Positions 15,905 through 31,725 of a stretch of DNA of 64,000 nucleotides are shown here, in pieces. The stretch is from positions 1 through 64,000 of the forward strand of contig CALXRI010000013.1 of assembly GCA_944390795.1 (NCBI GenBank), given 5' to 3'. The position numbers and the translations under genes are program-made. The first letter of the stretch is position 1. Each line of letters opens with the position of its first letter. The stretch comes from an uncultured Victivallales bacterium. GTDB lineage: Bacteria; Verrucomicrobiota; Lentisphaeria; Victivallales; UBA1829. The notes under the pieces are model-generated. The model was not told the origin of the DNA. It saw only the letters and a list, made by a program, of their open reading frames with translations, and did not search any database.

Positions 15905-16807
15905 TCACTCTTCCGGATCGGAGAAGCGTTCCAGAAGCCGCTCCCGGAAGAGTTCCGCCGCCTTGGAAAAGACCTGATACTTTTTCCATACAATGTGCAA
16001 GCCGGATTCCAGTTTCGGTTCCAGCGGGCGGAAACGGAGTTCGCGACTGCCGGCGGTATCAATCAGCCCGTCGAGTCCCAGCGCGTAACCGATCCCCGCC
16101 TCAACCAGCAGCGCGGCATTGTAAATGAGGTTGTAGGTCGCAACGATCTTGAGCTTTTCAAAACTTTTCCCGAACCATTCGGCATACGCGTTCTTCACTG
16201 TGCTCTGCCGGATGTTGATCCGTGAGCAGATCAGCGGGAGGTTCCGAAGATCCCGAAGCGTGATTGCCGTTTTTGCCGCAAGCGGAGAATCCTTCCGCAT
16301 GACGAGTCCCCAGGTGTCACGAATGGGAAGCGCAACGGAATCGTATTTGGAAATGTCCACCGGCTGAATCAGAACGCCGAAATCAAGAATGCCCTTGTCG
16401 AGCCGCTCCATGACGTCCTCGGCGTTGCCGCTGTAAAGGTTGTAGCGGATATCGGGATGTTCCTCCCGCAGTTCCCCGATTGTTTCGGCAACGAGCCGCA
16501 TGGCTTTGGATTCCCCGCCGCCGATATGAACGCTGCCGCCGATGTTTTCCCCCATGGCGTTGAAATCGCCCTCGGTCCGGTTGACGATTTCCAGAATCTC
16601 TTCCGCGCGTTTCCGCAGGAAACGTCCTTCCGCAGTCAGAGTGATGGTGCGGTTGCTGCGGATGAAAAGTTGTTGACCGAGTTCCTCTTCCAGATCCTGA
16701 AGCTGGCGCGACAAGGTCGGCTGGGTCACATGAAGAAATTTCGCCGCTCCGACAATCGTTCCCTCGCGCGCGACCGCGAGAAAATAACGCAACACTCTGA
16801 TTTCCAT
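15905..16807 (-). CDS. LysR family transcriptional regulator
   Basis: A 300-residue LysR-type regulator. The N-terminal winged helix-turn-helix reads MEIRVLRYFLAVAREGTIVG and LHVTQPTLSRQLQDLEEELG, followed by the linker helix and a periplasmic-binding-protein-like effector domain (IGGGESKAMRLVAETIGEL). The start at 16807 follows GGAGGTGTTCG, a strong ribosome binding site; an earlier in-frame ATG lacks one. It is divergent from the CMD-cupin gene, the usual LysR arrangement, so it probably controls the redox cluster to the right. The effector may be an aromatic or carbonyl compound, but the sequence does not say. Confidence 0.92.
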   Translation of the reverse strand: MEIRVLRYFLAVAREGTIVGAAKFLHVTQPTLSRQLQDLEEELGQQLFIRSNRTITLTAEGRFLRKRAEEILEIVNRTEGDFNAMGENIGGSVHIGGGESKAMRLVAETIGELREEHPDIRYNLYSGNAEDVMERLDKGILDFGVLIQPVDISKYDSVALPIRDTWGLVMRKDSPLAAKTAITLRDLRNLPLICSRINIRQSTVKNAYAEWFGKSFEKLKIVATYNLIYNAALLVEAGIGYALGLDGLIDTAGSRELRFRPLEPKLESGLHIVWKKYQVFSKAAELFRERLLERFSDPEE

Positions 16808-16891
16808 CGAACACCTCCACGGGTTGTACTTTTCGAAGATAGCATTGCAATCCATGCTTTTCAAGCATTTATATCTATAATAAATAAGTAT

Positions 16892-17019: not shown

Positions 17020-18066
17020 ATGCGGAAATTGTTTTTAATCGGAATGCTGTTTTCTCTCTTTCATTTTGTCAATCAACTGGAGGCGAAGGAAAATATGAAT
17101 CCATTGAAGGAAAAGGAAGAAAAACTCGTTGCAATTGCCATGTACACAGCTCGCGGTGAAATGCCGGAACTGAAGAATGCTCTGGCCGCCGGTCTGGATG
17201 CCGGATTGACCGTCAACGAGATCAAGGAAGTGCTCGTTCAGCTCTATGCGTATTGCGGATTCCCGCGCAGTCTGAATGCGCTCGGCTGCTTCATGACGCT
17301 GCTGAACGAACGGAAAGACCGGGGAGTTCAGGACGCCGCTGGAAAACTTCCGGGACCGCTCCCGGAGGGAAAGAGCGTTGATTTCGGAACGGCAAACCAG
17401 ACGGAACTTTGCGGCGCGCGGGTCAAGGGGGCGCTCTTCGAGTTCGCTCCGGCGATCGACGAGTATCTGAAGGCGCATCTCTTCGGCGACATCTTCGGCC
17501 GGGACAATCTCGACTGGCGGACACGGGAACTTGCCACCATCGCCGCGCTTGCCGCGATGGACGGCGTGGAAAGCCAGCTTGCCTCGCATATTGCCATCGG
17601 CAAGCACAACGGCGTGACCGATGCGCAGATCGACTGGATTCTTGGAAATGTGAAAAGCAACACGCTGAGCCCTTTCCCGCGCGGCGACGAAAATACCGCC
17701 TATGCAAAATATTTCATCGGAAAGTCCTATCTCGCGCCGCTGACGAAAGACAAGCGCCTCCATGTCCCGGTTTCCAACGTCACTTTTGAGCCCTCCTGCC
17801 GCAACAACTGGCACCGGCATACGGGCGGACAGCTTCTGATCGCGGTCGGCGGCGCCGGCTTCTATCAGGAACGCGGGAAAAAGGCCAGGAAACTTCTGCC
17901 CGGCGATGTGGTGGAGATTCCGCCGGATGTCGATCACTGGCATGGCGCGGCTCCCGATCAGTGGTTTTCCCATCTCGCGATCGAGTGCAATCCGGAAACC
18001 AACAAAAATACCTGGCTCGAACCGGTCTCCGATGCGGATTACGCCAGGGCGGCATCGGGAAAATGA
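17020..18066 (+). CDS. Exported carboxymuconolactone decarboxylase-cupin fusion
   Basis: A 348-residue protein with an N-terminal signal peptide (RKLFLIGMLFSLFHFVNQLEA). Two CMD/AhpD-like segments follow: EIKEVLVQLYAYCGFPRSLNAL around 67-88 and ELATIAALAAMDGVESQLASHIAIG around 168-192. A C-terminal cupin carries NNWHRHTGGQLLIAVGG and GDVVEIPPDVDHWHGA with metal-binding histidines. CMD-cupin fusions accompany flavodoxin and aldo/keto reductase genes in gut bacteria; their substrate is unknown. The second ATG at 17095 (NPLKEKEEK) has its own AAGGAAAAT site and would give a leaderless, cytosolic form. It is the first gene of the cluster opposite LysR and overlaps the next gene by ATGA. Confidence 0.88.
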   Translation: MRKLFLIGMLFSLFHFVNQLEAKENMNPLKEKEEKLVAIAMYTARGEMPELKNALAAGLDAGLTVNEIKEVLVQLYAYCGFPRSLNALGCFMTLLNERKDRGVQDAAGKLPGPLPEGKSVDFGTANQTELCGARVKGALFEFAPAIDEYLKAHLFGDIFGRDNLDWRTRELATIAALAAMDGVESQLASHIAIGKHNGVTDAQIDWILGNVKSNTLSPFPRGDENTAYAKYFIGKSYLAPLTKDKRLHVPVSNVTFEPSCRNNWHRHTGGQLLIAVGGAGFYQERGKKARKLLPGDVVEIPPDVDHWHGAAPDQWFSHLAIECNPETNKNTWLEPVSDADYARAASGK

Positions 18067-18329: not shown

Positions 18330-18914
18330 ATGAAAAAGAGAACGATGGCATTGATGATGGCGGCTTCCTTCTTCGGAGCCGGCGGCTGTTCGGCGGAAAA
18401 CACTGCTGCGCAGAAGGTTGAAACCGAACCGGGCAAAATCCTGATCGCCTATTACTCGTGGAGCGGCAACACCCGTTTTGCGGCGGAACAGATTCAGAAG
18501 CTGACCGGGGGGACGCTCTTTGAAATCAAACCCGCGAAAGCGTATCCGTCCGATTACGGCGCATGCGTCGATCAGGCGAAACAGGAGTGCCGCGACGAGT
18601 TCAAACCGGAGCTGGCGACGAAAGTCGATGATTTTTCCAAGTACGATGTCATCTTCGTCGGCACGCCGAACTGGTGGAGCACGATGGCTCCGCCGGTGCG
18701 CAGTTTCCTCGCCGGCCATGACTTCAGCGGCAAGACGGTGATTCCCTTCGTCACGCATGGCGGCGGCGGAATGGCGCACTGTGAACGGGATATGCGGAAA
18801 GCTTGTCCGAAAGCGGTGTTCGGCAGGGGCGGCGCGTTCTCCGGGGGAAGCATCCGGAATGCGGGAGACGCTCTGGGCAAGTGGGTCGGTGAGGTCGTGA
18901 GTGTCCGGAAATAA
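18330..18914 (+). CDS. Exported flavodoxin-like protein
   Basis: A 194-residue flavodoxin-fold protein predicted to bind FMN. The N-terminus is a signal sequence with cysteine at the expected lipidation place (MMAASFFGAGGCSAE), although AGGC is a weak lipobox. The FMN phosphate loop is YYSWSGNTRFAA, followed by KYDVIFVGTPNWWSTMAPPV and THGGGGMAHC. It belongs to the longer flavodoxins found with aldo/keto reductases. An extracytoplasmic place is unusual, since flavodoxins normally serve cytosolic redox partners. It lies 3 bp after the MerR-like gene and 11 bp before the hydrolase, in one operon. Confidence 0.85.
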   Translation: MKKRTMALMMAASFFGAGGCSAENTAAQKVETEPGKILIAYYSWSGNTRFAAEQIQKLTGGTLFEIKPAKAYPSDYGACVDQAKQECRDEFKPELATKVDDFSKYDVIFVGTPNWWSTMAPPVRSFLAGHDFSGKTVIPFVTHGGGGMAHCERDMRKACPKAVFGRGGAFSGGSIRNAGDALGKWVGEVVSVRK

Positions 18915-18925: not shown

Positions 18926-20227
18926 ATGAATGGCGCTGGAAAAATTTCTCTGTTTCTGCTGACGGCGCTTGGTGCGTTCCTCCTTGCGGCGGAGGAGTTT
19001 TCCCGGGAATCCATGGACTTTCTTTCCGCGCGTCCGGCCGGGGTGCAGGAACAGACCGCGCAGGCGGTCAGCGATGCTCTCAACGGCAACTTTGAGGATC
19101 TGAAGAAAGTTCGCGCAGGCATGCTTCAGGATGCGGAACCTCCCGCCGGAGTCCGGGTGGAAAACACCCGGGTCGGGGACCGGAGAATCCGCTTCTATTA
19201 TCCCGGGGACGAACCGGGGAAGGCGATCGTGCTTTATCTCCACGGCGGCGGGTGGACGCTCGGAGGTCTGGAGGGGAGCGCCCGTTTCTGCGGAGATCTT
19301 GCGAAGGTTTCCGGGCTGGACGTGGCGACGCTCGACTATCGCCTTGCGCCGGAGCATCGCGCGCCCGCGGCGCTGGAGGATGCGCTTGCGGCAGTCCGGA
19401 TGCTCCGGAATCGCGGATACCGGCGGATTTATCTTGCCGGAGACAGTGCGGGCGGCAATCTTGCCGCCACCGCCGCATGGAAAGAACGTTCCGGAATCGC
19501 GGGGGTGATCCTCTACTATCCGGTCGTGCTGGCGAAGAATGACCGTTCGGAATCGTGGCGGAAATACGGAGTGGGATTCGGACTGGACGGAGCCTTGATG
19601 GAGGCGTTCAACGAATCGTATGCGCCTGGCGCTCTCGCGGATGATCCGGGGGTCTCTCCCCTGCTGGCAGAAGAGTTCGCTCACTATCCCGAAACGCTGA
19701 TCGTCGCGGCGGAGTGCGACGTGTTGCACGATCAGGGCAAGGCGTTTGCGGAACTTCTGAAAAAGAACGGCGTGCCGGTGACGCACCGGACGCTTCCCGG
19801 AACGATTCACGCGTTCCTGACCTATCCGGGTATGGAGGGGGCGTACCGGGAGGGGGTGCGCCTCGCAACGGAGTTTCTGAAAAGACAGGAGGATCGGATG
19901 AAAAACCGCATTACGCCGGAGAGCATCGTGCGGATCTCGCGGATCGAAGTCGATCCCGCACAGCTTCCGGAATATCTCGCTCTCGTGACCGAATGCGGGC
20001 GCGAATCCATGGCGAAGGAACAGGGCGTCTACATGATGTATTCGATGCAGGAGAAGGCGCATCCGGAACGGATCACGATTCTGGAGATCTACGCGGACCG
20101 CGCCGCCTACGAGCATCATATTCAAACGCCGCATTTTCAAAAGTACAAGCAGACAACGCTGAAAATGGTCAAGCAGCTGGATCTGCTCGATCAGAATCCG
20201 CTCGTTCCGGAAATGAGGATGAAATAA
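18926..20227 (+). CDS. Alpha/beta hydrolase-ABM monooxygenase fusion
   Basis: A 433-residue exported protein. After a signal peptide (GKISLFLLTALGAFLLAAEE), residues 30-320 form an HSL-type esterase: oxyanion motif YLHGGGWTLGG, nucleophile elbow GDSAGGN, acid-region VAAECDVLHDQG and catalytic His in GTIHAFLTYP. From residue 325 a separate ABM-like domain follows (ESIVRISRIEVDPAQLPEYL, then RITILEIYADRAAYEHHIQT), a small alpha/beta-barrel fold used by cofactor-free monooxygenases. AGGAGG (19888-19893) stands before an internal ATG at 19898 exactly at the domain border, so a free 109-residue ABM protein may also be made. Confidence 0.88.
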   Translation: MNGAGKISLFLLTALGAFLLAAEEFSRESMDFLSARPAGVQEQTAQAVSDALNGNFEDLKKVRAGMLQDAEPPAGVRVENTRVGDRRIRFYYPGDEPGKAIVLYLHGGGWTLGGLEGSARFCGDLAKVSGLDVATLDYRLAPEHRAPAALEDALAAVRMLRNRGYRRIYLAGDSAGGNLAATAAWKERSGIAGVILYYPVVLAKNDRSESWRKYGVGFGLDGALMEAFNESYAPGALADDPGVSPLLAEEFAHYPETLIVAAECDVLHDQGKAFAELLKKNGVPVTHRTLPGTIHAFLTYPGMEGAYREGVRLATEFLKRQEDRMKNRITPESIVRISRIEVDPAQLPEYLALVTECGRESMAKEQGVYMMYSMQEKAHPERITILEIYADRAAYEHHIQTPHFQKYKQTTLKMVKQLDLLDQNPLVPEMRMK

Positions 20228-20237
20228 GGGAGTTTTT

Positions 20238-20318
20238 ATGAAATGTTTTCTGACAACCCCGTTTGCTCTTGTCGAAGCAGATGGTTCGGCATGGATACGG
20301 TCTGTCGAACCACGATGA
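20238..20318 (+). CDS. Possible 26-residue peptide or gene remnant
   Basis: GGGAGTTTTT precedes an ATG opening a 26-codon frame (KCFLTTPFALVEADGSAW). It lies in the 251-bp gap between the hydrolase fusion and the alcohol dehydrogenase. No family is recognised. The rest of the gap has no convincing frame, so this may be the start of a gene lost by deletion. Confidence 0.2.
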   Translation: MKCFLTTPFALVEADGSAWIRSVEPR

Positions 20319-20478
20319 ATCGGAACGCCTTGAAGGAAAAACTCGAGCTGACCGATCAGCATGTTCTGCACTTGAATCATCCGGTCGGTTATTCCGCGAG
20401 TGGAAAGAGAGATAGATCCGACTTTTTATTCAAGACTGCCCGGTGAAATCATTCAAAAATAAAAACAGGAGGTAGAGA

Positions 20479-21648
20479 ATGCAGTTTGATATGTATGTTC
20501 CAACCCGTCTGCTCTTCGGCTGCGGAAAGCTCAACACGCTTCACGAACAACCCCTGCCGGGAAAAAAGGCGCTGATCGTCATTTCCAACGGGAAATCGAC
20601 CCGGGCCAATGGTTATCTGGCCCGGACGGAAAAGGAGCTTGAGGCGGCCGGGATCGTCGGCGTGGTCTTTGATGGCGTCGAACCCAATCCGACTGTTTCG
20701 AATGTGGAAGCCGGCGCTCGTGCCGCGCGGGAGTGCCATTGTGATTTTCTGGTTGCGCTCGGCGGCGGCAGTGTGATGGATTGCGCCAAAGGCATTGCGC
20801 TTATGGCGGTCAACGACGGCGTGCTCTGGGATTATGTAGCGGTAGGTTCCGGCCGGGGATTGCCGGTTCCGAACACTCCGCTGCCGACTGTTGCCATTAC
20901 CACGACCGCCGGAACCGGTTCGGAGATGGATGGAGCGGGAGTCATCACGAAAGAGGATTCGTTTGAAAAAGCGTTCATCATGCATCCCGGATTGTTTCCG
21001 AAACTTTCGATCGTGGATCCGGAACTGATGCGGACGGTTCCCCCGAAATTTACGGCATATCAGGGATTTGACGCACTTTTTCACAGTGTGGAGGGATTCA
21101 TAGCCAAAGGGGCCAATCCCATGAGCGACATGTATGCGCTCTGCGCGATTGAAAACATTGCCCACCATCTGCCGCAGGCTGTGAAAAACGGCAGCGACCT
21201 GGAGGCCCGGTCTCATGTGGCATTCGGCAATTCACTCTCCGGAGTGGTGATGAACCTGACGCTCCTGACCAGCGAACACGGCATGGAACACGCGCTTTCC
21301 GCGTATCACCCGAATCTGCCGCATGGAGCCGGACTGATCATGATCAGCAATGCCTACTATGCCTATTTTGTCCGGAACCATGGTTGCGACGAACGGTTCA
21401 TCCGCCTGGCAAAGGCGATGGGAATGACGGCGGCGACTGCTCCCGAAGATTTTCTGACCGCTCTGGAGAAATTGCAGCAGGAGTGCGGTGTGGCGGATCT
21501 GCGGATGTCCGGTTTCGGCATCACTCCGGACGAGTGCGGGAAATTTGCCCGCAACGCCAGGGAAGTGATGGGAGTCATGTTCACCAGCGATCGAGTCCCG
21601 ATGAGTGATTCGGATGTCGAACAGATTTATCGAGATTCCTATCGCTGA
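20479..21648 (+). CDS. Iron-containing alcohol dehydrogenase
   Basis: A 389-residue family III (Fe-dependent) alcohol dehydrogenase, reducing aldehydes or ketones with NAD(P)H in the cytosol. The N-terminus MQFDMYVPTRLLFGCGKL, the GGGSVMDCAKGIA nucleotide loop and the TTAGTGSEMDGAGVI segment are typical. Metal ligands are expected in YQGFDALFHSVEGF and HGMEHALSAYHPNLPHGAGL. GGAGGTAG precedes the ATG. Unlike most neighbours it has no signal peptide. It sits in the same orientation 251 bp after the hydrolase fusion. Confidence 0.92.
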   Translation: MQFDMYVPTRLLFGCGKLNTLHEQPLPGKKALIVISNGKSTRANGYLARTEKELEAAGIVGVVFDGVEPNPTVSNVEAGARAARECHCDFLVALGGGSVMDCAKGIALMAVNDGVLWDYVAVGSGRGLPVPNTPLPTVAITTTAGTGSEMDGAGVITKEDSFEKAFIMHPGLFPKLSIVDPELMRTVPPKFTAYQGFDALFHSVEGFIAKGANPMSDMYALCAIENIAHHLPQAVKNGSDLEARSHVAFGNSLSGVVMNLTLLTSEHGMEHALSAYHPNLPHGAGLIMISNAYYAYFVRNHGCDERFIRLAKAMGMTAATAPEDFLTALEKLQQECGVADLRMSGFGITPDECGKFARNAREVMGVMFTSDRVPMSDSDVEQIYRDSYR

Positions 21649-21670
21649 TTTCATGAGAAAGGAGTTGTTC

Positions 21671-21886
21671 ATGCCTGTCATAACGCTGGAAATCTCCAAC
21701 TTAAACCGTGAACAGAAAAAACTTCTGGTTTATGAGATGACGGAGATCACAGCCCGGGTATCGGGTCTGCCTCCGGAAACCATTACCATGTTCATCAAGG
21801 AAAATGAACTGGACAACATCGGTTTTGCGGGCCGTCTCCTGTCTGAACCTGCGAAGAAGGAAGGGGCGGAAAATGAACCGACGTGA
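21671..21886 (+). CDS. 4-oxalocrotonate tautomerase-like protein
   Basis: A 71-residue tautomerase-superfamily protein starting Met-Pro: MPVITLEISNLNREQKKLL, with the catalytic Pro2 (Pro1 after Met removal). It continues TARVSGLPPETITMFIKENE. The start at 21671 is fixed by the proline and by AAAGGAGTTGTTC; the open frame extends further upstream without a site. The family isomerises enol-keto substrates from aromatic degradation. The C-terminal tail KKEGAENEPT overlaps the next gene's start by 14 bp. Confidence 0.85.
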   Translation: MPVITLEISNLNREQKKLLVYEMTEITARVSGLPPETITMFIKENELDNIGFAGRLLSEPAKKEGAENEPT

Positions 21887-22532
21887 TTTTCTGAAAACCT
21901 CTCTTGCTGCGACTGCGGCGGTTGCGGGCAGTGCGTTTCTTGGAGGAACTCTGCTGAATGCCGTCGCAGCTCCGGCCGGAAACAATACGAAAGGTGGAAA
22001 GATGAAAATACTGGTGATTACGGGAAGTCCCCGGAAAAATGGAAATTCCAACACGCTTGCGGAACATTTCATCCGCGGCGCGAAAGAGGCCGGACATGAA
22101 ATCGTCCGTTTTGATGCCGCGTTCAAGGATGTTCATCCCTGCATTGCATGCAACAAATGCGGCATGAACGGAGCATGCGTGTTCAAGGACGATTTTGAAT
22201 TTGTCCGGAAACATATCCTTGACGCGGGGATGGTGGTCTTCGCCACGCCGATGTATTACTTCGGCATCTCCGCGCAGATCAAGGCGGTGATCGACCGCTT
22301 CTACGCGATCAACGGCGCGATCCATGTGCCGAAGAAGGCCGCTCTGTTGATGACCTATGCCGACAACAACAAACGCAAGGAGAAGGCGATTACCGATCAT
22401 TACCAGGTCCTGCTGGAGTATCTCGGCTGGAGCGACGCCGGGCGGGTGATTGCACCGGGCGTCTGGCCGGTCGGCGCGGTCAATCATACGAAATATCCGG
22501 AACAGGCGTATCGGCTTGGAAAGAGCGTGTGA
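21873..22532 (+). CDS. Tat-exported NADPH-dependent FMN reductase/flavodoxin-like protein
   Basis: A 219-residue protein with a twin-arginine signal (NRRDFLKTSLAATAAVAGS) followed by an iron-sulfur flavoprotein-like FMN reductase domain: KILVITGSPRKNGNSNTLA, then CIACNKCGMNGACVFKDDF and FATPMYYFGISAQIKAVIDR. The cysteine-rich segment is usual for this flavin reductase branch. An internal ATG at 22002 is preceded by AAAGGTGGAAAG and begins exactly at the domain (KILVITG), so a cytosolic form may be made as well. It overlaps the tautomerase gene and is followed 2 bp later by the DUF6282 gene. Confidence 0.88.
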   Translation: MNRRDFLKTSLAATAAVAGSAFLGGTLLNAVAAPAGNNTKGGKMKILVITGSPRKNGNSNTLAEHFIRGAKEAGHEIVRFDAAFKDVHPCIACNKCGMNGACVFKDDFEFVRKHILDAGMVVFATPMYYFGISAQIKAVIDRFYAINGAIHVPKKAALLMTYADNNKRKEKAITDHYQVLLEYLGWSDAGRVIAPGVWPVGAVNHTKYPEQAYRLGKSV

Positions 22533-22534
22533 CC

Positions 22535-23515
22535 ATGGACCGGCGGGAGTTCATCAAGACGCTCGGCGTCGCCGGAGGTGCGATGCTGGTCGGCGGGGCG
22601 GCCGGCGCCTCCATCCGGAACGAACCGGTGGTCCGGCGCGGAAAATCCGCCGACCCGCTGCTTGCCGGTGTCTGTGACATTCACATTCATTGTCTTCCGG
22701 ACACCCGGGCACGCTGCATCGACGAGCTGACGCTCGCACGACAGGCGAAGGCGGTCGGATACCGGGCGCTGATGTACAAGTCGAACGACTGGAGCTGTCA
22801 TGACCGCGCGTATCTGATCCGGCAGGCCCTGCCGGAATTCGAGGTGTTCGGGAGTCTCTGCATGAACCGCGTCCACGGCGACAAGGTCAACGTCTTTGCC
22901 GCGGAACAGGCGGTCAAGACTTCCGGAGGGCTCTGTCGCTGCATCTGGATGCCGACGCTCTCCGCCGCCTATCAGCACCGGTGCGACAAACTCCCGGGGC
23001 CGGGCATTCCGGTTCTCGATCCTCAGGGAAACGTTCTTCCAGAGGTCGTCCGAGTGATGGAACTCTGCGCCGAAGCGGACATCATCTTTGCATCTGGACA
23101 CAGTTCGCCGCAGGAAAGTCTGGTTATGGCGCGAAAGGCGAAGGAGATCGGGGTGAAGAAATTTGTCGTCACTCACGTCAATTCGCTGATCTGGAAGCTG
23201 ACGCACGACCAGATTCGGCAGGCGGTCGATCTCGGTGCGTTTGTGGAATATTGCTACCTGCCGCGTCTCTGGGGGCCGGGAACTGGGAATCCGCAGTTCG
23301 AACGGCAGAGTCGTGAGGAGTTTCTGACTTATGTACGGACAATTCCGGAACGCAGCTTTATTTCGACCGATCTCGGGCAACGGGGCAATCCGAATCCGAT
23401 TGACGGAATGCGGACGTGCATCCGGGAGCTGCTCGCCGCCGGGATTCCGCAGAGAGACGTCGACCGGATGGTGCGGGACAATCCGCCATACTTGATTGGT
23501 CTCAAGCGCAAATGA
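22535..23515 (+). CDS. Tat-exported DUF6282 family metal-dependent hydrolase
   Basis: A 326-residue protein with twin-arginine motif DRREFIKTLGVAGGAM and a TIM-barrel amidohydrolase/PHP-like core. GVCDIHIHCLPDTRARCID gives the first metal histidines, followed by FASGHSSPQESLVMARKAK, FVVTHVNSLIWKLT and STDLGQRGNPNPIDGMR. The pattern fits DUF6282, related to amidohydrolases; the reaction is unknown. The start at 22535 puts the Arg pair at residues 3-4, as in the neighbouring Tat proteins. It follows the FMN reductase by 2 bp. Confidence 0.8.
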   Translation: MDRREFIKTLGVAGGAMLVGGAAGASIRNEPVVRRGKSADPLLAGVCDIHIHCLPDTRARCIDELTLARQAKAVGYRALMYKSNDWSCHDRAYLIRQALPEFEVFGSLCMNRVHGDKVNVFAAEQAVKTSGGLCRCIWMPTLSAAYQHRCDKLPGPGIPVLDPQGNVLPEVVRVMELCAEADIIFASGHSSPQESLVMARKAKEIGVKKFVVTHVNSLIWKLTHDQIRQAVDLGAFVEYCYLPRLWGPGTGNPQFERQSREEFLTYVRTIPERSFISTDLGQRGNPNPIDGMRTCIRELLAAGIPQRDVDRMVRDNPPYLIGLKRK

Positions 23516-23529
23516 AGGAGGTTTGAAAG

Positions 23530-24822
23530 ATGAATCGACGCGATTTTCTGAAATCGGCGGCGCTGGTCACGGCCGCCGGAGCCATGTTCGGCAAAGGATC
23601 GGTTTTGAAAGCGGCGGAACCTGCCGCAGTGAAACCCAAAGGGCCGGTCTTGAACTTCAATCCGCAGATGCAGTACCGTCCGATGGGACGGACGGGAGTG
23701 AATGTTTCCGCGCTCGGATTCGGACTTCTCCGCCTTCCGATGCTTCCCGACGGGAAAACCGTGAACTCCGATCTGAGCGTCGCGATGATTCACCGGGCGA
23801 TCGAGGGGGGTGTCAACTACATCGACACCGGGCGCGTCTATCTCGGCGGACAGAGCGAGGCGGTCGCCGGAAAAGCGCTGAAAGGAAAGTGGCGCGAGCG
23901 GGTTTACGTCACCTCCAAATCTCCGTGGTGGATCATGGAAAAACCGGAGGACTTCGAAAAGTTTTTCGACGAGTCCCGCCGGACAATGGGGTGTGACGTC
24001 ATTGATTTTTATCACATCCACATGATCATGCATCGCGGCTGGAAAGAGAAAGTGATCCCGTTCAAGCTGATCGACAAGATCATGAAGCTCAAGGAACAGG
24101 GGAAAATCCGCTTTGCGGGTTTCTCGTTTCATGATCGTCTTCAGCTCTTCAAGGAGGTGGTGGAATCCGCCCCCTGGGATTTCTGCCTGATCCAGCATAA
24201 CTATCTGGATTACGAATATGAAGCTGGCTGTCTCGGACCGAAATACGCCGCGGCCAACGGGATGGGACTTGCTGTGATGAAACCGGTACGGACGGGATTT
24301 CTTGCGAATCTGCCGCCGTCCATGCGCGCGGCGCTCCGCTCGACCGGAGTGGAAAAGCCGGACACCGAATGGGCGCTTGACTACCTGTGGGATATTCCGG
24401 AGGTCAGCGTCGCGGTGAGCGGCATGGGAGCAATGGCGGATGTCGAGGCGAATCTGCGTTACGCATCGAAAGCGAAGCCGGACATGCTGACACCGGATGA
24501 ACGCAAGGCGCTCGGCGCGGCGATTCATGCCTATCGGAACACTCCGGGACATATCGACTGCACAGGCTGTTATCAGTGCATTCCATGCCCGCACAATGTG
24601 GCGATCGGGTACATCTTCGCCTACGTCTACAACAACTATCTGGTGCACAGGAACAAAAAACGGGCGATTGCCGACTACACGGTTGCGATGTCGCCGATTC
24701 AGCGCGGAGCGCCAGCCTCTGCGTGCGTGAACTGCGGCGCGTGTCTGGCGAAGTGTCCGCAGAAACTCAACATTCCGGAACTTCTGAAACGTGTCCGGAA
24801 TGATCTGGAATCCGGATTTTAA
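23530..24822 (+). CDS. Tat-exported aldo/keto reductase with C-terminal 4Fe-4S module
   Basis: A 430-residue protein. Residues 1-30 are a Tat signal (NRRDFLKSAALVTAAGAM). The aldo/keto reductase barrel covers about 45-330, with Asp and Tyr in NYIDTGRVY, Lys in VTSKSPWW and His in YHIHMIMH. The C-terminal 80 residues carry CTGCYQCIPCPHNV and CVNCGACLAKCPQKLNIPEL, a ferredoxin-like module. NADPH is not expected outside the cytoplasm, so the Fe-S module may bring the electrons, or the enzyme may carry bound cofactor. GGAGG precedes the start. It is the last gene before a new promoter. Confidence 0.9.
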   Translation: MNRRDFLKSAALVTAAGAMFGKGSVLKAAEPAAVKPKGPVLNFNPQMQYRPMGRTGVNVSALGFGLLRLPMLPDGKTVNSDLSVAMIHRAIEGGVNYIDTGRVYLGGQSEAVAGKALKGKWRERVYVTSKSPWWIMEKPEDFEKFFDESRRTMGCDVIDFYHIHMIMHRGWKEKVIPFKLIDKIMKLKEQGKIRFAGFSFHDRLQLFKEVVESAPWDFCLIQHNYLDYEYEAGCLGPKYAAANGMGLAVMKPVRTGFLANLPPSMRAALRSTGVEKPDTEWALDYLWDIPEVSVAVSGMGAMADVEANLRYASKAKPDMLTPDERKALGAAIHAYRNTPGHIDCTGCYQCIPCPHNVAIGYIFAYVYNNYLVHRNKKRAIADYTVAMSPIQRGAPASACVNCGACLAKCPQKLNIPELLKRVRNDLESGF

Positions 24823-24884
24823 AATCGGAGGCGGATCGTCTTGCTCCCGGAGGAAAAAGACAGTAAGAAAATCTGGAATCCGAT

Positions 24885-24914
24885 TTGACTTGTAGCGGCT
24901 GTGACGTTTATTAT
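24885..24914 (+). promoter_or_regulatory. Promoter of the membrane Fe-S/aldo-keto reductase unit
   Basis: TTGACT (24885-24890) and TATTAT (24909-24914) are spaced by 18 bp in the 139-bp gap. The next ATG is 47 bp downstream, preceded by AAAGGAAATCAGAA. Confidence 0.5.
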
Positions 24915-24961
24915 ATATGAGAAAGTGGTATTAAGAGGACTGCTGCAAAGGAAATCAGAAA

Positions 24962-25660
24962 ATGAAAATCAACGGAAAAACTGCGGAATTCATCCGGATC
25001 GGCGCAGCCGCCCTGGTGTTCCTCGCCATGGGCCTGGCCTTTTCCGGGTTCAGCTTCTGTGCTGCAATATGGCTGCCAAAACTGCAGTTCGCGCCCGCTC
25101 TCCTGGCATCTGCTGCGGCCTTTTCCGCCGGGGCGCTCTTTGCCGTTTCGGTGACTGCGCTTCTGACCTTCTGCTTCGGGCGCTTTTACTGTGCGTTTTT
25201 CTGTCCGCTCGGCATTCTGCAGGATGTGATTGCTTATCTGTCGCGGCGCGAAGGGAAAGGTTTGCCGAACTGTCGCAGAATCCGCTACGGGATTGCCGGC
25301 GTTGCTGTCGGAATGGTTCTGGCGGGCTGGAGTCTGCCGTTCCTGCTTCTGGACCCGTATTCCAATTTCGGACGGATTGCAGGAAGTTTCACGATCGGCG
25401 GACTTCTCCCGCTGCTGGTGATTGCGTTTCTGGCTGTCTGGAAAAAACGGATCTACTGCACTGCAATTTGTCCGGTCGGAACGGTGCTGGGACTGCTTGC
25501 CAGGCACGGGCTCTTCCAGTTGCATCTGACGGAACAGTGTGTCAAGTGCGGCCAGTGTGTCAAGGTGTGTCCATCCGGATGCATCGACCCGGCGGCGGGA
25601 ACGATTGACAACGAGCGCTGCGTGCGCTGTCTGAGCTGTCTTGCCGTCTTCATGCCGTGA
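24962..25660 (+). CDS. NapH-like membrane 4Fe-4S protein, N-terminal part
   Basis: A 232-residue membrane protein resembling NapH/CcoG-type quinol-linked electron carriers. Hydrophobic helices alternate with CFGRFYCAFFCPLGILQD and IYCTAICPVGTVLGLL. A ferredoxin-like segment CVKCGQCVKVCPSGCIDP and then CVRCLSCLAV follow. The last Cys-Pro of this second cluster is missing: the frame runs CLAVFMP-stop. In related Bacteroidota proteins the sequence continues into the domain encoded by the next frame as one chain of about 480 residues. A deletion of about 4 bp near 25648 explains both the lost Cys-Pro and the split. Confidence 0.85.
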   Translation: MKINGKTAEFIRIGAAALVFLAMGLAFSGFSFCAAIWLPKLQFAPALLASAAAFSAGALFAVSVTALLTFCFGRFYCAFFCPLGILQDVIAYLSRREGKGLPNCRRIRYGIAGVAVGMVLAGWSLPFLLLDPYSNFGRIAGSFTIGGLLPLLVIAFLAVWKKRIYCTAICPVGTVLGLLARHGLFQLHLTEQCVKCGQCVKVCPSGCIDPAAGTIDNERCVRCLSCLAVFMP

Positions 25661-26286
25661 AGTACGGGCGTCCCGGGAAAAAGGTGCGGACGCTTGACAA
25701 GGGACGCCGGGCGTTTCTGGTGAACGGGGGCATTTTGATTGCCGGAGCCGCCGCCGGAGCTGCGCTGGCCAGAGTCGGCATGGGAAAACTTGCCGGCTAT
25801 GCAAAACGCTTTTCCATTCTTCCGCCGGGAGCGGGCAATGCGGAACGGTTCGCTTCAAAATGCACGGCCTGTCAGCTCTGCACGGTGAACTGCCCGGCGA
25901 AGATCATTGTGCCGGCTCCGGGAGGAGACGGTCCGGTTTCGCTCGACTTGAATCGAGGAGCCTGTTTATACGACTGCAACCGCTGTTCGCAGGTCTGTCC
26001 GACCGGCGCGCTTCGTCCGCTGGCGCTTCAAGTCAAGCAGAAAACGAAAATTGCGGAAGCAAAGTTCAATCCGCGTGTCTGCATTGTGTTCCAGGAGGGG
26101 GAGAAATGCGGCAAGTGTGCACATGTCTGCCCGACCGGAGCGGTGACACTCCGCTCGAGCGGAGCGCCGCGACCTGTCAATACCGCGCTCTGCATCGGCT
26201 GCGGAGCCTGTCAACAGGTCTGCCCCGCGCCGGGGAAAGCGATGACTGTTCATGAAATCGAGCGGCAGATCCTGCTGAAAAAATAA
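25657..26286 (+). CDS. NapH-like protein, C-terminal ferredoxin part (split gene)
   Basis: A 209-residue frame starting at GTG in a GTGA overlap with the preceding stop. It begins with a twin-arginine-like membrane segment (KGRRAFLVNGGILIAGAAAG). Three clusters of cysteines follow: CTACQLCTVNCPAKI, CNRCSQVCPTGALRPL and CGKCAHVCPTGAV then CIGCGACQQVCPAPG. In homologues this is the second half of the preceding gene. Here it could still be made by termination-reinitiation, giving a two-chain complex, or may be inactive. It would sit on the outer face of the membrane and pass electrons to the exported reductases. Confidence 0.82.
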   Translation: MKYGRPGKKVRTLDKGRRAFLVNGGILIAGAAAGAALARVGMGKLAGYAKRFSILPPGAGNAERFASKCTACQLCTVNCPAKIIVPAPGGDGPVSLDLNRGACLYDCNRCSQVCPTGALRPLALQVKQKTKIAEAKFNPRVCIVFQEGEKCGKCAHVCPTGAVTLRSSGAPRPVNTALCIGCGACQQVCPAPGKAMTVHEIERQILLKK

Positions 26287-26383
26287 ATGGTTCCGTTCCG
26301 TGGTTCCGGCCTGTTTTCTATTGAAGAGCCCGGAGCGTTTCGGTCATTCGAAGTCGAATGAAAACAACAGAAAGGATGACAGA

Positions 26384-27679
26384 ATGAACAGAAGAGAATT
26401 TCTGAAAAGCGCACTGACCGTTGCAGCACTTGCTCCCGTCACGCGCATTGTTGCAAAGGAGGGGCCCGACGGGAACAAATCTTCGGAGGGGAAAGGCCGG
26501 CAGATCACCCGTCGCCGTTACAAGCATACCGCGCTTACCGTTCCGCTGCTCGGATTCGGAATGATGCGTCTGCCGCGCATCTCGCCGGACAAGCCGGATA
26601 TCGACTATGCCACGGCGGAAAAGCAGATCGCCCGGGCAATGGAGGTCGGTCTCAATTATTTCGACACCGCTTATTTCTATCACGACGGACTCAGCGAAAA
26701 ATGTGCCGGAGACCTGTTGAGCCGGTATCCCCGCGACCGTTATTACCTTGCCAGCAAAATGCCTGTGCGCGCCTTGAAAAAGGAAGGGGACGTCGAACGT
26801 ATCTGGCGGGAACAGCTTGCACGCTGCAAAACTGATTATTTCGATTTCTACCTGGTTCATAATCTGAACCGGGATCGCTGGACGGACACCAGACGATTCC
26901 ATGTCTACGAGTTTCTGAAACAGAAGCAGAAAGAAGGAAAAATCCGCAAACTGGGATTCTCATTTCATGACGAGCCGGAAATTCTGAAGGAGATTGCCGA
27001 AGCGCACACATGGGATTTCGGACAGATTCAGCTCAATTACCTGGACTGGACCCTCTACCGTTCCCGGGAACAGTATGAGATCCTAACAAAGCTCGGCATT
27101 CCGGTCATTGTGATGGAACCTCTCCGTGGCGGCGCGCTTGCAGCGCTGAATCCGGAAGCGACGGCGATTCTGAAAAAAGCCAATCCCGATGTGAGCGCCG
27201 CTTCCTGGGCATTGCGTTATGCGGCAAGTCTTCCGAATGTTCTTTGCGTCCTTTCCGGCATGACGCTGACCGAGCACCTCGAAGACAACATCGGCACTTT
27301 TACCGATTTCAAAGCGCTGAATGATGCGGAACGGAAAACGATCGAGGCGGCGCTTGCAGCCTACCGGAAATCCGGAGCAGTTCCCTGCACGGAATGCCGT
27401 TACTGCACACCATGCCCGGTCGGAGTGAACATTCCCCGGGTGTTTGGGCTCTACAATCAGGCGAAGACAACGGGAAATACCGGACATTTCCGTCTGGTGT
27501 ACGACAAAATGTCATCGGATGAAAAGGCCTCCGCCTGCGTCAGCTGTGGAGCTTGCCTGAAAAAATGTCCGCAGCACATCCAGATTCCTGAAATGCTGAA
27601 AAAAATCACTTCGGAAATGGAAGGCCCTCTGAAGAAGAGTGCCATGTTCTGGTCGCCGGATCACGAATTTTATGTATGA
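26384..27679 (+). CDS. Tat-exported aldo/keto reductase with 4Fe-4S module (second copy)
   Basis: A 431-residue paralogue of the upstream reductase. The Tat signal reads NRREFLKSALTVAALAPVTR. The barrel keeps the full tetrad: Asp and Tyr in NYFDTAYFY, Lys in YLASKMPV and His in FYLVHNLN. The C-terminal clusters are CTECRYCTPCPVGVNIPRV and CVSCGACLKKCPQHIQIPEM. The start at 26384 is preferred because it puts the Arg pair at residues 3-4, as in the neighbours; the longer frame adds a poor leader. It lies 97 bp after the ferredoxin part and 18 bp before the third reductase. Confidence 0.9.
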   Translation: MNRREFLKSALTVAALAPVTRIVAKEGPDGNKSSEGKGRQITRRRYKHTALTVPLLGFGMMRLPRISPDKPDIDYATAEKQIARAMEVGLNYFDTAYFYHDGLSEKCAGDLLSRYPRDRYYLASKMPVRALKKEGDVERIWREQLARCKTDYFDFYLVHNLNRDRWTDTRRFHVYEFLKQKQKEGKIRKLGFSFHDEPEILKEIAEAHTWDFGQIQLNYLDWTLYRSREQYEILTKLGIPVIVMEPLRGGALAALNPEATAILKKANPDVSAASWALRYAASLPNVLCVLSGMTLTEHLEDNIGTFTDFKALNDAERKTIEAALAAYRKSGAVPCTECRYCTPCPVGVNIPRVFGLYNQAKTTGNTGHFRLVYDKMSSDEKASACVSCGACLKKCPQHIQIPEMLKKITSEMEGPLKKSAMFWSPDHEFYV

Positions 27680-27697
27680 GCAGGAGAAAGGAGTCTT

Positions 27698-28909
27698 ATG
27701 GATCGGCGTGACTTTCTGAAAACGACTCTGACGCTGGCGGCGCTTGCGCCGCTTTCCCGCCTTTCGGCACAGACAAAAGAGGACATCGACAAGAAGTCCC
27801 AAGGTATGATTTACCGGAAGCTGGGACGATCCAGCCTCTCGGTCAGTGTGATCGCTCTAGGAATTGAGGGATTCAAAAGCAGATCGTTTGAAGAAACAAA
27901 AACTCTCGTGACGTATGCGCTGGGAAACGGTATCAACTTCCTGGATCTCTGCATTGCCGACCCCCAAATGCTTTCCGATATCGCCCGGGCGATGGGTGAA
28001 AAACGAAAACAATGTGTTATTCAGGGTCATCTCGGTTCCATCTGGAGAAATGGTCAATATCTTCGCAGCCGGAATCTGAAAGCCTGCAGAGAGGCGTATG
28101 AAAATATGCTGAAAACATTCGGCGGACATATTGAGATCGGCATGATTCACTATGTGGACGCGGAAGATGATCTGGATCGGATTCGCCGGAATGGACTGCT
28201 GGCTTACGCTAGAGACCTGAAAGCCGCCGGACGAATTGATGCGATTGGTCTGTCCAGCCACAGCCCGGCCATTGCCCGCCGTGCGGTGGAGGAAAATCTG
28301 GTGGATGTCCTGATGTTTTCCATCAATCCCGGATACGATTTGCGTCCCTCCGGAAGACGGATCGAATACGATGAGGAGCGCCAGAAACTTTATGAACTCT
28401 GCGCCCGCAAAAACATTGGCGTGGACGTGATGAAAGCCTATGGCGGAGGCGATCTGCTGAATGCGCGTCTCTCTCCGTTCGGCAAGGCGTTTACGCCGGT
28501 GCAGGCGCTGCACTATGCGCTGACCCGTCCGGCAGTTGCGGCCGTAATGGTCGGATGCCGGAATGTCGCGGATATTCAGGCGGCGCTTGCATGGTGTTCC
28601 GCTTCCGCCGCGGAACGGGATTACACCCGTGTACTCGACGGGCTTGACGCGAAATCATGGCAGGGGCACTGTCTTTACTGCGGCCATTGCGCGCCCTGTC
28701 CGAAAGAGATCGATATTGCCAGCGTCAACAAATATTTGAATCTGGCGCTTGCCCAGGGTGAAGTCCCTCCGACGGTGCGCGACCACTATCGTCTCCTGAA
28801 GCATCATGCCTCGGAATGCATTCAGTGCGGCGCATGCGAAAAACGGTGTCCGTTTTCCGTTCCGGTCCGGACAAAAATGAAACAGGCGGCCGGATTATTC
28901 GGAATTTGA
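27698..28909 (+). CDS. Tat-exported degenerate aldo/keto reductase with 4Fe-4S module
   Basis: A 403-residue third paralogue with Tat signal DRRDFLKTTLTLAALAPLSR. The barrel fold is clear (YRKLGRSSLSVSVIALG, GRIDAIGLSSHSPAIARRAV), but the tetrad is damaged. The Asp is kept in NFLDLC, the Tyr five residues later is Asp (CIADPQ), the Lys position is Gly (VIQGHLG), and the His is kept (GMIHYVD). The Fe-S module is intact: CLYCGHCAPCPKEIDI and CIQCGACEKRCPFSVPV. It may be a redox relay or partner rather than a classical reductase. AGGAGAAAGGAG precedes the ATG. Confidence 0.88.
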   Translation: MDRRDFLKTTLTLAALAPLSRLSAQTKEDIDKKSQGMIYRKLGRSSLSVSVIALGIEGFKSRSFEETKTLVTYALGNGINFLDLCIADPQMLSDIARAMGEKRKQCVIQGHLGSIWRNGQYLRSRNLKACREAYENMLKTFGGHIEIGMIHYVDAEDDLDRIRRNGLLAYARDLKAAGRIDAIGLSSHSPAIARRAVEENLVDVLMFSINPGYDLRPSGRRIEYDEERQKLYELCARKNIGVDVMKAYGGGDLLNARLSPFGKAFTPVQALHYALTRPAVAAVMVGCRNVADIQAALAWCSASAAERDYTRVLDGLDAKSWQGHCLYCGHCAPCPKEIDIASVNKYLNLALAQGEVPPTVRDHYRLLKHHASECIQCGACEKRCPFSVPVRTKMKQAAGLFGI

Positions 28910-28975: not shown

Positions 28976-29392
28976 ATGACAAAACTGGTTCGCATCAGCC
29001 TCTCTCTGGAGGAATCTCTGCTGGAACAGCTCGCATCCATGCAGAAGAAGGACGGTTATGAAAACCGTTCGGAATACATCCGGGATCTGATCCGCGGCCA
29101 GATCGCCCGCCGGGAGTGGATTTCCGGCGAGGAAGTCATCGGTACGCTTTCGCTGATCTACAACCACCATCAGCGGGGACTCTCCGAAAAACTGATTGAC
29201 CTGCAGCATCATTCTTCCGTTCATGTTCTTGCTTCGACGCATGTTCATCTGAGCCACGAAATCTGTGCGGAGATGATTATGATCCGGGGGCGTGGATGCG
29301 AAATCGAAAAGCTCGCCGCGTCCCTGAAACGTCTCAAGGGAGTTCTGAAGGCCGAGTTGACGGCCGGAAGCATGGGAAACGCGCTTCGCTAA
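28976..29392 (+). CDS. nikR: Nickel-responsive transcriptional regulator NikR
   Basis: A 138-residue ribbon-helix-helix repressor with an ACT-like nickel-sensing domain. The N-terminal DNA-binding part is TKLVRISLSLEESLLEQLAS. High-affinity nickel ligands fall at H78, H89, H91 and C97 (QHHSSV, STHVHLSHEIC), spaced 11, 2 and 6 exactly as H76, H87, H89 and C95 of E. coli NikR. Length is normal. It lies 66 bp after the third aldo/keto reductase, with a NikR-type operator 46 bp after its stop, before a metal transport operon on the same strand. Confidence 0.95.
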   Translation: MTKLVRISLSLEESLLEQLASMQKKDGYENRSEYIRDLIRGQIARREWISGEEVIGTLSLIYNHHQRGLSEKLIDLQHHSSVHVLASTHVHLSHEICAEMIMIRGRGCEIEKLAASLKRLKGVLKAELTAGSMGNALR

Positions 29393-29438
29393 AACGGAAG
29401 ATCCCACTGCAGGAAACAGAAGGGAAAAGAATTTTCAA

Positions 29439-29465
29439 GTATTACGAAAATTAAAAACGTAATAT
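29439..29465. promoter_or_regulatory. NikR operator
   Basis: GTATTAC (29439-29445), 13 bases, GTAATAT (29459-29465). This matches the non-enterobacterial NikR consensus GTGTTAC-N13/14-GTAACAC described for delta-proteobacteria, with near-perfect dyad symmetry. It lies between nikR and the transporter operon, 37 bp before the first start codon, and overlaps TAATAT, a possible -10 box. Nickel-bound NikR would thus repress the operon. Confidence 0.75.
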
Positions 29466-29502
29466 TGATAACGGATGAAACCTGAAAAATAAAGACATTC
29501 AG

Positions 29503-30195
29503 ATGAAATTTCAAAGAAGATGTTTTTCTCTTGTGGAACTCCTGGTTGTGATTTCGGTCATCGGTATCTTGTCCGGATTGCTGCTGCCCGCATTGAATGC
29601 GGCGCGAACCAGGGCACACTCCATCAGCTGCATGGGGAATGCAAAGCAGATCGGTCAGGCGTATTTCAGTTATGTTTCCGACTGGGGCATGACGCCGCCG
29701 GTCAGCAAATCAGGCGTCCGCTGGATCGACTGTCTGGAACCTTATCTTGCGGAAAAAAGTGAACGCAGTTCAGGCAATGTGTTCGTCTGCCACGCCGACC
29801 GGAGACCGGAAGACAAAAAGGTCGTTTACGGCACCAGCGATGTCAACAAGCTCAGTTACGGCATCAACCAGTGCTACCCGTCGAACAGGGACAGTGCAAC
29901 CCCCATTCTCTGGAATGGAATCGGGGCGAACCAGATCCGGAATCCTTCCGGATTCATCACGATTGCGGACGCGGGAAGCTACTATATCGGCACCACGGTC
30001 GCCGCGCCGTTCTTCGGCACGTTGAATGGAGAACCCTATGTGGACGGCGGATATTGCAAATATCTGTCATTCCGCCATGGCGGGAGAACGCGGGATTTCA
30101 ACGCGGGGTTTGCCGACGGACACGCCGCCACCATGAAATTCGATACGACACCGGACCGTTACTGGGATTACAGGAGTGTCGGATATGGTTTTTAA
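29503..30195 (+). CDS. Pseudopilin-like protein (N-terminal methylation domain)
   Basis: A 230-residue protein starting MKFQRRCFSLVELLVVISVI, a type IV pilin/pseudopilin N-terminus with the conserved Glu, followed by LLLPALNAARTRAHSISCMG. The C-terminus has FRHGGRTRDFNAGFADGH, the DGH ending of the large pseudopilin families of Lentisphaerota and Planctomycetota. The residue before the Phe is Cys, not the Gly preferred by prepilin peptidase. It is the first gene after the NikR operator, and the next gene starts inside its last codons. A link to nickel uptake is implied by position only. Confidence 0.82.
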   Translation: MKFQRRCFSLVELLVVISVIGILSGLLLPALNAARTRAHSISCMGNAKQIGQAYFSYVSDWGMTPPVSKSGVRWIDCLEPYLAEKSERSSGNVFVCHADRRPEDKKVVYGTSDVNKLSYGINQCYPSNRDSATPILWNGIGANQIRNPSGFITIADAGSYYIGTTVAAPFFGTLNGEPYVDGGYCKYLSFRHGGRTRDFNAGFADGHAATMKFDTTPDRYWDYRSVGYGF

Positions 30196-30976
30196 ACCTG
30201 TTTTTCTTATTCTGGCGCTTTGTCTGCTTGCGGGTTGCGCACCGGAACGGAAAGCAAAAACGCCGCAGCGGATTCTCTCGCTCTCGACGGCGGCGACGCA
30301 TATTCTGACGGAACTCGAAACTCCGCCATGTGCCATCGATGAATACGGACGGATCGCGGCAGGTTCGCCGCCTCCGGCTGTGATCGGCAAGGGGACCGCC
30401 GTTTCGCGCGAGAAGATCGCCGAACTCGGAGTCGACGGAGTGATTCTCTGGTATTATCAGGAGGAAGCGGCGGAACGTTTCCGGAACGAGGGGCTTCCGG
30501 TTACGGTTATCTCCGCCGTGCGCCTCGCGGAATATCCTGAGCTGATTCTGCGCCTCGGCGAAGTGACGGGAAAGACGGAACGGGCACAGGAACTCGCCGA
30601 AGCCTTCCGCGGTCGGCTCGAACGAATTTCCGTCCCGGCGAAAGTTCCGGCGCGGCGGGTCTGTTTTGAATTGTACAGCCCCGGAAAAATCGCCGGAGAC
30701 GCATCGTATCTCGGCGATCTTGTCCGGGTGGCGGGCGGAAAAAGCATCGTGTCGAAAACAGGTTTGATTTCGGCGGAAGCCGTGGTCGAGGCCGCGCCCG
30801 ACGTGATCTTCTACATCGAAGGCTTCGGAAGCGCTGCGGAAATTGCCGCGCGAAGCGCTTACTCAGGAACGCCTGCCGTTCGCAACGGCCGAATCCATGC
30901 CGTTCCCCGCCGCCTGACCGTCGAGGGGATCGCTCCGCTGGAGGCAATCGAATTCATCAGACAATATATGAGGTGA
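30185..30976 (+). CDS. FecB/BtuF-type metal-chelate binding lipoprotein
   Basis: A 263-residue periplasmic binding protein. The lipobox is LLAGC (Cys 18). The body has the two-lobed BtuF/FecB pattern: RILSLSTAATHILTELE, KIAELGVDGVILWYYQEEAA, AGDASYLGDLVRVAGGKS and APDVIFYIEGFGS. This class binds siderophores, cobalamin, haem or nickel chelates. AGGAG precedes the ATG at 30185, which overlaps the pseudopilin stop by 11 bp, so translation is coupled. Its position behind a NikR operator points to nickel or a nickel complex. Confidence 0.88.
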   Translation: MVFKPVFLILALCLLAGCAPERKAKTPQRILSLSTAATHILTELETPPCAIDEYGRIAAGSPPPAVIGKGTAVSREKIAELGVDGVILWYYQEEAAERFRNEGLPVTVISAVRLAEYPELILRLGEVTGKTERAQELAEAFRGRLERISVPAKVPARRVCFELYSPGKIAGDASYLGDLVRVAGGKSIVSKTGLISAEAVVEAAPDVIFYIEGFGSAAEIAARSAYSGTPAVRNGRIHAVPRRLTVEGIAPLEAIEFIRQYMR

Positions 30977-30980
30977 CAAT

Positions 30981-31721
30981 ATGGCATTTTACCGGATCAC
31001 ATGGAATGAGAAGTATGATTTTGCAACCCTTCACAACTGGGGATGCACCTTCCGCTGCCCCTTTTGCAGCTACAAACTGCGGAGCGGGGAAAACGGCCGT
31101 CCCGGATTCGCCGAACCGAAGCCGGAACACTTTCTTTCCGTCGATGAAATGAAGGAGGCGCTGCGCAGAGTCTCTCCCGGAAAAGTCTATTTCATGGGGG
31201 GAGAGCCGACCGTGGCGAAAGAGCTTGAGGAGATGATCTCCTTTGCAAAGCATGAACTCGGAGCGGAGACCCGGCTCGGCCATACCAACGGCAGCCGTCT
31301 GCCGCTTCCCGGTCTGGACGGAGCCAACGTCGGACTCAAGGCGTGGAGCGAAGAGCTTCATCTTGAGATTACCGGGAAACCGAAGTCGCTGATCTATGAC
31401 AACTTCCGCGCCGCGTTCGACTCCGGCATGAAGATGGCGGCCAATCTGGTGTTCATCCCGGGGCTGGTCGGTCTCGACGAAATGGAAGGCGTGGTAAGTT
31501 TCCTCGCCGGACTCGACCGGAATATTCCCTTTCACATCGACGGTTATATTCCGATCCCCGGCCTGCCGTGGAAACGGCCGACCGACGAAGAGATGAAGGC
31601 CGCCGAAAAACTGGCGGAAAGTTATCTTGCGCATGTGAAAAGCTCCCATTTGACGACGGAAGAGGCGCTCAACCTCTCCGCGCGGGATGACCGGTTCAAA
31701 GTGAAAACCATTGCGGGATAA
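30981..31721 (+). CDS. Radical SAM protein within the NikR-controlled operon
   Basis: A 246-residue radical SAM enzyme. Its 4Fe-4S motif is C22-x3-C26-x2-C29 (GCTFRCPFCSYK), followed by FMGGEPT at 72-78, the SAM-contacting GGE motif. No auxiliary cysteine cluster is visible, so it has a single cluster and a short C-terminus, in the size range of activating enzymes and small modifying enzymes. It starts 4 bp after the binding protein and ends 4 bp before the permease, clearly within the operon. Possible roles are making or altering a metal-binding ligand, or modifying a peptide or cofactor. None can be chosen from sequence. Confidence 0.85.
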   Translation: MAFYRITWNEKYDFATLHNWGCTFRCPFCSYKLRSGENGRPGFAEPKPEHFLSVDEMKEALRRVSPGKVYFMGGEPTVAKELEEMISFAKHELGAETRLGHTNGSRLPLPGLDGANVGLKAWSEELHLEITGKPKSLIYDNFRAAFDSGMKMAANLVFIPGLVGLDEMEGVVSFLAGLDRNIPFHIDGYIPIPGLPWKRPTDEEMKAAEKLAESYLAHVKSSHLTTEEALNLSARDDRFKVKTIAG

Positions 31722-31725
31722 TGAG

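Follow-up and report, generated by a model that had tools for sequence, protein, structure and literature searches.

Tat-signalled aldo/keto reductase-ferredoxins of a Victivallales bacterium and the recurrent pairing of one type with a NapH-NapG-like membrane polyferredoxin

Gene content and export signals of the locus

The DNA analysed here, referred to as the window, is a stretch of 64,000 nucleotides of contig CALXRI010000013.1 from an uncultured Victivallales bacterium. Between 21.8 and 28.9 kb, five genes on the same strand have reading frames which open with twin-arginine (Tat) signals of the form RRxF[LI]K. Three of them encode aldo/keto reductases (AKRs), here designated AKR1, AKR2 and AKR3. 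The features of this region are:

21873..22532, + strand: Tat-FMN reductase/flavodoxin-fold protein (PF03358, TAT_signal; N-terminus MNRRDFLK)
22535..23515, + strand: Tat-DUF6282 protein, predicted to be exported (PF19799, 194.7 bits; N-terminus MDRREFIK)
23530..24822, + strand: AKR1, Tat signal (MNRRDFLK) and AKR barrel with full tetrad and two [4Fe-4S] motifs
24962..25660, + strand: NapH-like half of a membrane polyferredoxin gene (napH 68.7 bits, Fer4_5; alignment, TM scan)
25640..25650, + strand: site of a 7-nt deletion splitting the fused gene (DNA alignment; one ORF of ~443 aa in relatives)
25657..26286, + strand: NapG-like half, RRAFL helix and extracytoplasmic ferredoxin domain (alignment with relatives, TM scan)
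26384..27679, + strand: AKR2, Tat signal (MNRREFLK) and AKR barrel with full D-Y-K-H tetrad, CX2CX2CX2CP and CX2CX2CX3CP
27698..28909, + strand: AKR3, Tat signal (MDRRDFLK) and AKR barrel without catalytic Tyr/Lys, two [4Fe-4S] motifs

The preliminary description of this DNA had pointed to the five signals, to three AKRs with double C-terminal 4Fe-4S modules and to a NapH-like gene among them, and all three observations are confirmed. The Pfam TAT_signal profile scores above its cut-off in the FMN reductase and AKR1, and TIGR01409 does so in the FMN reductase and the DUF6282 protein. Residues R3, R4 and F6 of the signal are invariant across 22 aligned AKR1 orthologues, which argues that the Tat signals are not due to chance, and a genome search found one tatC in the window's genome. 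With an RRxF[LI]K motif and a genomic tatC, the three AKRs, the FMN reductase and the DUF6282 protein are all predicted to be exported as Tat substrates. Aldo_ket_red exceeds its cut-off of 24 bits in AKR1, AKR2 and AKR3 (102, 140 and 54 bits, respectively), and Fer4_9/Fer4_17 is found at the C-terminus of each, placing all three among the COG1453-type AKR-ferredoxins. AKR2 shares both this domain pair and the D-Y-K-H tetrad with that type, but many COG1453-type relatives lack a signal, whereas AKR2 is Tat-signalled and linked to a polyferredoxin. The NapH-like gene lies between AKR1 and AKR2, and proves to be one half of a split gene.

The membrane polyferredoxin gene

The NapH-like half encodes four TM helices, two CX3CPxG motifs and a cytoplasmic ferredoxin domain; it stops early, so that the fourth cysteine of the second cluster is missing. 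In the NapG-like half an internal twin-arginine RRAFL helix, equivalent to TM5 of the fused protein, is followed by four extracytoplasmic [4Fe-4S] motifs. In relatives the two parts form one ORF of ~443 aa, a NapH-NapG fusion which runs from four TM helices and two CX3CP motifs through a two-cluster ferredoxin domain to RRxFL, TM5 and a four-cluster ferredoxin domain. The internal RRxFL before TM5 and all cluster cysteines are invariant in seven intact fused proteins (alignment, TM scan). A single intact ORF of this kind is not present in the window: alignment of the DNA with the three closest homologues shows 7 nt to be absent from the window gene, and at the deletion site, ATGCCGTGA, a GTG restart overlaps the stop of the first half. 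Since the membrane gene is split by this deletion, the local AKR2-polyferredoxin pair may be impaired; alternatively, the missing 7 nt at 25.6-25.7 kb may be an assembly error instead of a real deletion. A programmed frameshift at 25.65 kb is not favoured, as two intact relatives read straight through in the alignment and the window lacks the 7 nt.

The gene is not a true napH, its score falling below the NCBIfam cut-off; indeed both halves score far under their thresholds (NapH 68.7 versus 213, NapG 48.7 versus 269). As in the NapGH proteins of the periplasmic nitrate reductase system, a NapH-type membrane Fe-S protein is combined with a Tat-type ferredoxin, but unlike NapGH loci the window shows no nap nitrate reductase among its cluster genes. 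A closer likeness is to the polyferredoxin PFD of the delta proteobacterium MLMS-1, described in the relevant passages of Tooke et al. (2017; PMC5449189) as a dual Sec/Tat polyferredoxin, of a fused NapH-NapG family experimentally shown to be co-integrated by Sec and Tat. PFD and the relatives of the window gene are alike in the NapH-NapG fusion, the RRxFL before TM5 and the clusters on both sides of the membrane; PFD is a single chain, whereas the window has two separate halves, and those passages show no AKR partner for PFD. The seven intact relatives, each one chain with five TM helices and RRxFL before TM5, would by their sequences be dual Sec/Tat polyferredoxins.

Pairing of Tat-signalled AKRs with polyferredoxins across genomes

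In a survey of 247 Bacteroidales genomes, 39 of 43 genes for Tat-lipoprotein AKR-Fe-S proteins have a polyferredoxin gene on the same strand within 5 kb, and for 36 of the 43 it lies within 100 bp; these counts ignore kinship between genomes, and the list admits three weaker polyferredoxin matches because they adjoin an AKR. The AKR-lipoprotein and the polyferredoxin are both present in the same 38 of the 247 genomes, and the lipobox cysteine is invariant in 12 Tat-AKRs. With its Tat-lipoprotein AKR and its polyferredoxin of ~500 aa, this Bacteroidales pair is distinct from the window type. Across 195 genomes of the window's phylum, 12 of 28 NapH-NapG genes have a Tat-AKR gene no more than 5 kb away, as do 10 of the 14 closest (window included), the counted neighbour including AKR1 in two cases. 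The two kinds of gene occur together in the same genome for 18 of the 28 (Fisher p 2e-11, ignoring kinship). Against the pairing, a comparison by eye shows no full-length NapH-NapG match in 9 of the 24 genomes of the phylum that encode an AKR2-type Tat-AKR. Many Lentisphaeria-type loci, with gene positions taken from tblastn, again combine NapH-NapG with AKR2, and linkage of a polyferredoxin to an AKR-Fe-S gene is seen in Desulfovibrio- and Akkermansia-type loci also. The expected co-occurrence of Tat-AKR-Fe-S proteins with the NapH-like gene thus holds as a recurrent pair for the AKR2 type, the two genes being neighbours much more frequently than expected by chance, and the pairing of a predicted exported AKR-[4Fe-4S] protein with a NapH-type conduit is well supported by these gene distributions.

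AKR1, AKR3 and the case against a single system

AKR1 belongs to a different gene neighbourhood, whose further members in the window are:

15905..16864, - strand: LysR-type regulator, divergent from the AKR1 cluster (named from sequence; conserved with the cluster in Victivallis relatives)
17020..18066, + strand: carboxymuconolactone-decarboxylase/cupin protein with Sec-type N-terminus (AKR1 cluster)
18330..18914, + strand: flavodoxin with lipoprotein-type N-terminus (PF12682; AKR1 cluster)
18926..20227, + strand: esterase (Abhydrolase_3) fused to an ABM domain, signal peptide by eye (AKR1 cluster)
20479..21648, + strand: iron-containing alcohol dehydrogenase without signal peptide (adjoins AKR1 in many Bacteroidota)

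AKR1 recurs in 77 loci, with records from Bacteroidota, Desulfovibrionaceae, Verrucomicrobia/Akkermansia-type bacteria and Acidaminococcaceae. Its neighbours there are varying sets of DUF6282, esterase/ABM, carboxymuconolactone-decarboxylase/cupin, flavodoxin, iron-containing alcohol dehydrogenase and FMN-reductase genes, the DUF6282 gene adjoining it in many phyla. By eye, most products of the window cluster bear Tat, Sec or lipoprotein N-termini. Among Victivallis-type relatives the AKR1 gene shows 89-97% identity. The window copy has a nearer match in another family of the order (97%) than within its own genus (91%), which points to horizontal transfer. A NapH-NapG gene lies near AKR1 in 3 of the 77 loci, leaving 74 without a NapH-like neighbour; a close NapH-NapG gene is absent from all 26 non-Victivallis AKR1 genomes tested, and in ten of these the distant polyferredoxin is missing too. 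AKR1 is a paralogue in a separate gut cluster that appears to be horizontally spread and is predicted to be largely exported. The cluster (window 17020-24822; L036-L111) has the look of a largely exported pathway spread horizontally through several gut phyla. In one Acidaminococcaceae record (L049:10001-11287) a stop or frameshift breaks the reading frame of the AKR1 homologue.

AKR3 is a catalytically altered paralogue bearing a Tat signal: in the alignment two of its four catalytic residues, the tyrosine and the lysine, are lost. Its relatives are mostly located elsewhere, and an N-terminal signal region is found in 2 of 18 AKR3 matches, namely the window protein and one relative. The AKR3 signal (27698-27772) resembles that of AKR2 (26384-26458) at 48 of 75 nt. 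Because it is AKR2-like whilst most AKR3 relatives have none, the signal was possibly captured from the neighbouring AKR2 gene.

The preliminary description had joined all five Tat genes and the NapH-like gene into one extracytoplasmic AKR-ferredoxin system. The genes are indeed co-linear in the window and, minus AKR3, in one relative (G002), but this reading is very improbable given that 74 of 77 AKR1 loci lack a NapH-like neighbour, that AKR2 with NapH-NapG occurs without AKR1 in other loci, and that AKR3 relatives lie mostly elsewhere. A single locus-wide system is accordingly rejected on gene distributions. What stands of the earlier claim is the recurrent pair of AKR2 and a NapH-type gene; its extension to the whole locus fails, with AKR1 lacking a close NapH-NapG gene, AKR3 altered and the membrane gene broken. 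The locus is three things rather than one: the pair of AKR2 and the NapH-like gene, the AKR1 cluster, and AKR3. Beyond AKR3, the window carries at 28976-33382 a NikR-like regulator, then a prepilin-like gene, then genes for a putative ABC transporter (binding protein, permease and ATPase).

Catalytic residues, cofactor pocket and structure models

The Asp-Tyr-Lys-His tetrad is complete in AKR1 and AKR2 and is kept in nearly all predicted exported AKR-Fe-S proteins in the alignment, and all eight cluster cysteines are invariant in 73 AKR-Fe-S sequences. In an alignment of 162 AKR-Fe-S proteins with Tm1743, S-F-H mostly replaces S-N-F, and Met replaces Tyr216 throughout, in proteins with and without a signal; these family-wide changes leave cofactor use ambiguous. 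The C-terminal NAD(P) signature varies between groups: S/Q/(D/E)/N is kept in AKR-Fe-S proteins without a signal, is modified albeit NAD(P)-like in the AKR2 type (T/H/D/N), is likewise modified in the Tat-lipoproteins, and is largely lost in AKR1 (G/D/(E/A)/N with Q190L). The pocket residues do not serve as proof of a missing NAD(P): in the alignment, L-galactose dehydrogenase, whose structure was solved with NAD, differs at the same positions. The predicted model of AKR2 reaches a pLDDT of 91.7 and is confident through the Fe-S domain; in structure comparison its barrel resembles NAD(P)-dependent AKRs, with Z up to 29 for the AKR fold. The model of AKR1 is weak (pLDDT 73.6) and was left out of account. 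A PDB sequence search gave no match across both the barrel and the Fe-S domain, AKR folds aligning mainly over the barrel.

Tat exports folded, cofactor-loaded proteins. The earlier expectation that NADPH would be lacking outside the cytoplasm therefore does not decide the matter, the more so as the NAD(P)-like signature persists in the AKR2 type. Glucose-fructose oxidoreductase is an exported enzyme with bound NAD(P) and internal recycling, and the AKRs might similarly be self-contained, or their Fe-S domain structural, with the polyferredoxin linked for some other reason. Such an explanation would suit the persistence of signature residues in AKR2-type proteins, the existence of AKR-Fe-S proteins without a signal and the presence of AKR1 in genomes without a close polyferredoxin. 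We nevertheless consider it distinctly improbable: the Bacteroidales adjacency, the matching presence in 38 genomes and the invariance of the eight cysteines argue against it.

Proposed mechanism and its significance

Aldo/keto reductases are textbook soluble NADPH enzymes. On balance we favour, with some reserve, the reading that AKR2 and the preceding membrane gene exemplify a two-gene module for quinone-coupled oxidoreduction outside the cytoplasm. The AKR would be loaded with tightly bound NAD(P) before Tat export; the polyferredoxin would exchange electrons with (mena)quinone and relay them through the membrane, either into the AKR clusters or out of them; and the reaction outside the cytoplasm would be a quinone-coupled carbonyl/alcohol, probably sugar-like, oxidoreduction. 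That AKR2-type proteins are exported AKRs with a probable quinone link is a well supported prediction, the link itself being drawn by analogy from the family.

With carbonyl/alcohol couples at about -0.2 V and menaquinone at about -0.07 V, reduction of a carbonyl by menaquinol would be uphill under standard conditions. From these textbook potentials we lean towards an AKR2 type that acts as a dehydrogenase feeding menaquinone, the reverse of the flow in the preliminary description; most likely the module would be a periplasmic dehydrogenase delivering electrons to the quinone pool. The opposite direction, a terminal reductase in which electrons from menaquinol travel by way of the polyferredoxin, then the AKR clusters, to an external carbonyl compound, seems unlikely on this energetic ground, although gene linkage is compatible with either direction. 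It does have precedents in the parts of the literature drawn on here: NapGH is a quinol dehydrogenase which runs from quinol to the periplasm (PMC5449189), and a menaquinol:organohalide oxidoreductase exemplifies Tat-exported double-[4Fe-4S] enzymes fed by menaquinol (PMC10624902). The respiratory reductive dehalogenase RdhA, Tat-exported and tied to menaquinol, resembles AKR2 in its Tat signal and double [4Fe-4S] module, but has a corrinoid fold and another membrane partner where AKR2 has an AKR barrel; no corrinoid dehalogenase domain was matched in AKR1-3 by Pfam or NCBIfam.

A broader proposal is more doubtful, though possible: that a widespread class of quinone-linked, Tat-exported AKR-[4Fe-4S] proteins has exchanged soluble NAD(P)H for electrons conducted by a NapH-NapG polyferredoxin, the barrel being gated to single-electron clusters without a flavin. 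No flavin domain which might gate hydride into single electrons was found in AKR2 with Pfam or NCBIfam, which counts against the favoured two-gene reading. The coupling of a hydride-transfer barrel to [4Fe-4S] clusters is the mechanistic question posed. A conserved operon of an extracytoplasmic AKR and a quinone-type conduit would imply that gut Bacteroidales, Lentisphaeria and Desulfovibrio-type bacteria carry out a respiratory or dehydrogenase reaction so far unrecognised; in Bacteroidales, where the operon has two genes, it can be tested in tractable laboratory strains. No description of an exported AKR-ferredoxin, or of its polyferredoxin pairing, was found in titles and abstracts from non-subscription journals, a search which may miss hyphenated spellings.

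Possible other partners of the polyferredoxin

Five Bacteroidales polyferredoxin loci without a Tat-AKR were inspected, and all share another type of gene directly upstream. Its Tat signal is visible in four of the five, the fifth having been called from a later start, and two of the five are confirmed as DUF362 by Pfam. With Tat-DUF362 genes beside other polyferredoxins, the partner of this electron conduit appears to be exchangeable. The genome of the window itself shows the order of the five Bacteroidales loci: a Tat-DUF362 gene beside tatC (L182:4638-7087, G000:C4), its DUF362 domain confirmed by Pfam, is directly followed by a second, intact polyferredoxin of ~500 aa.
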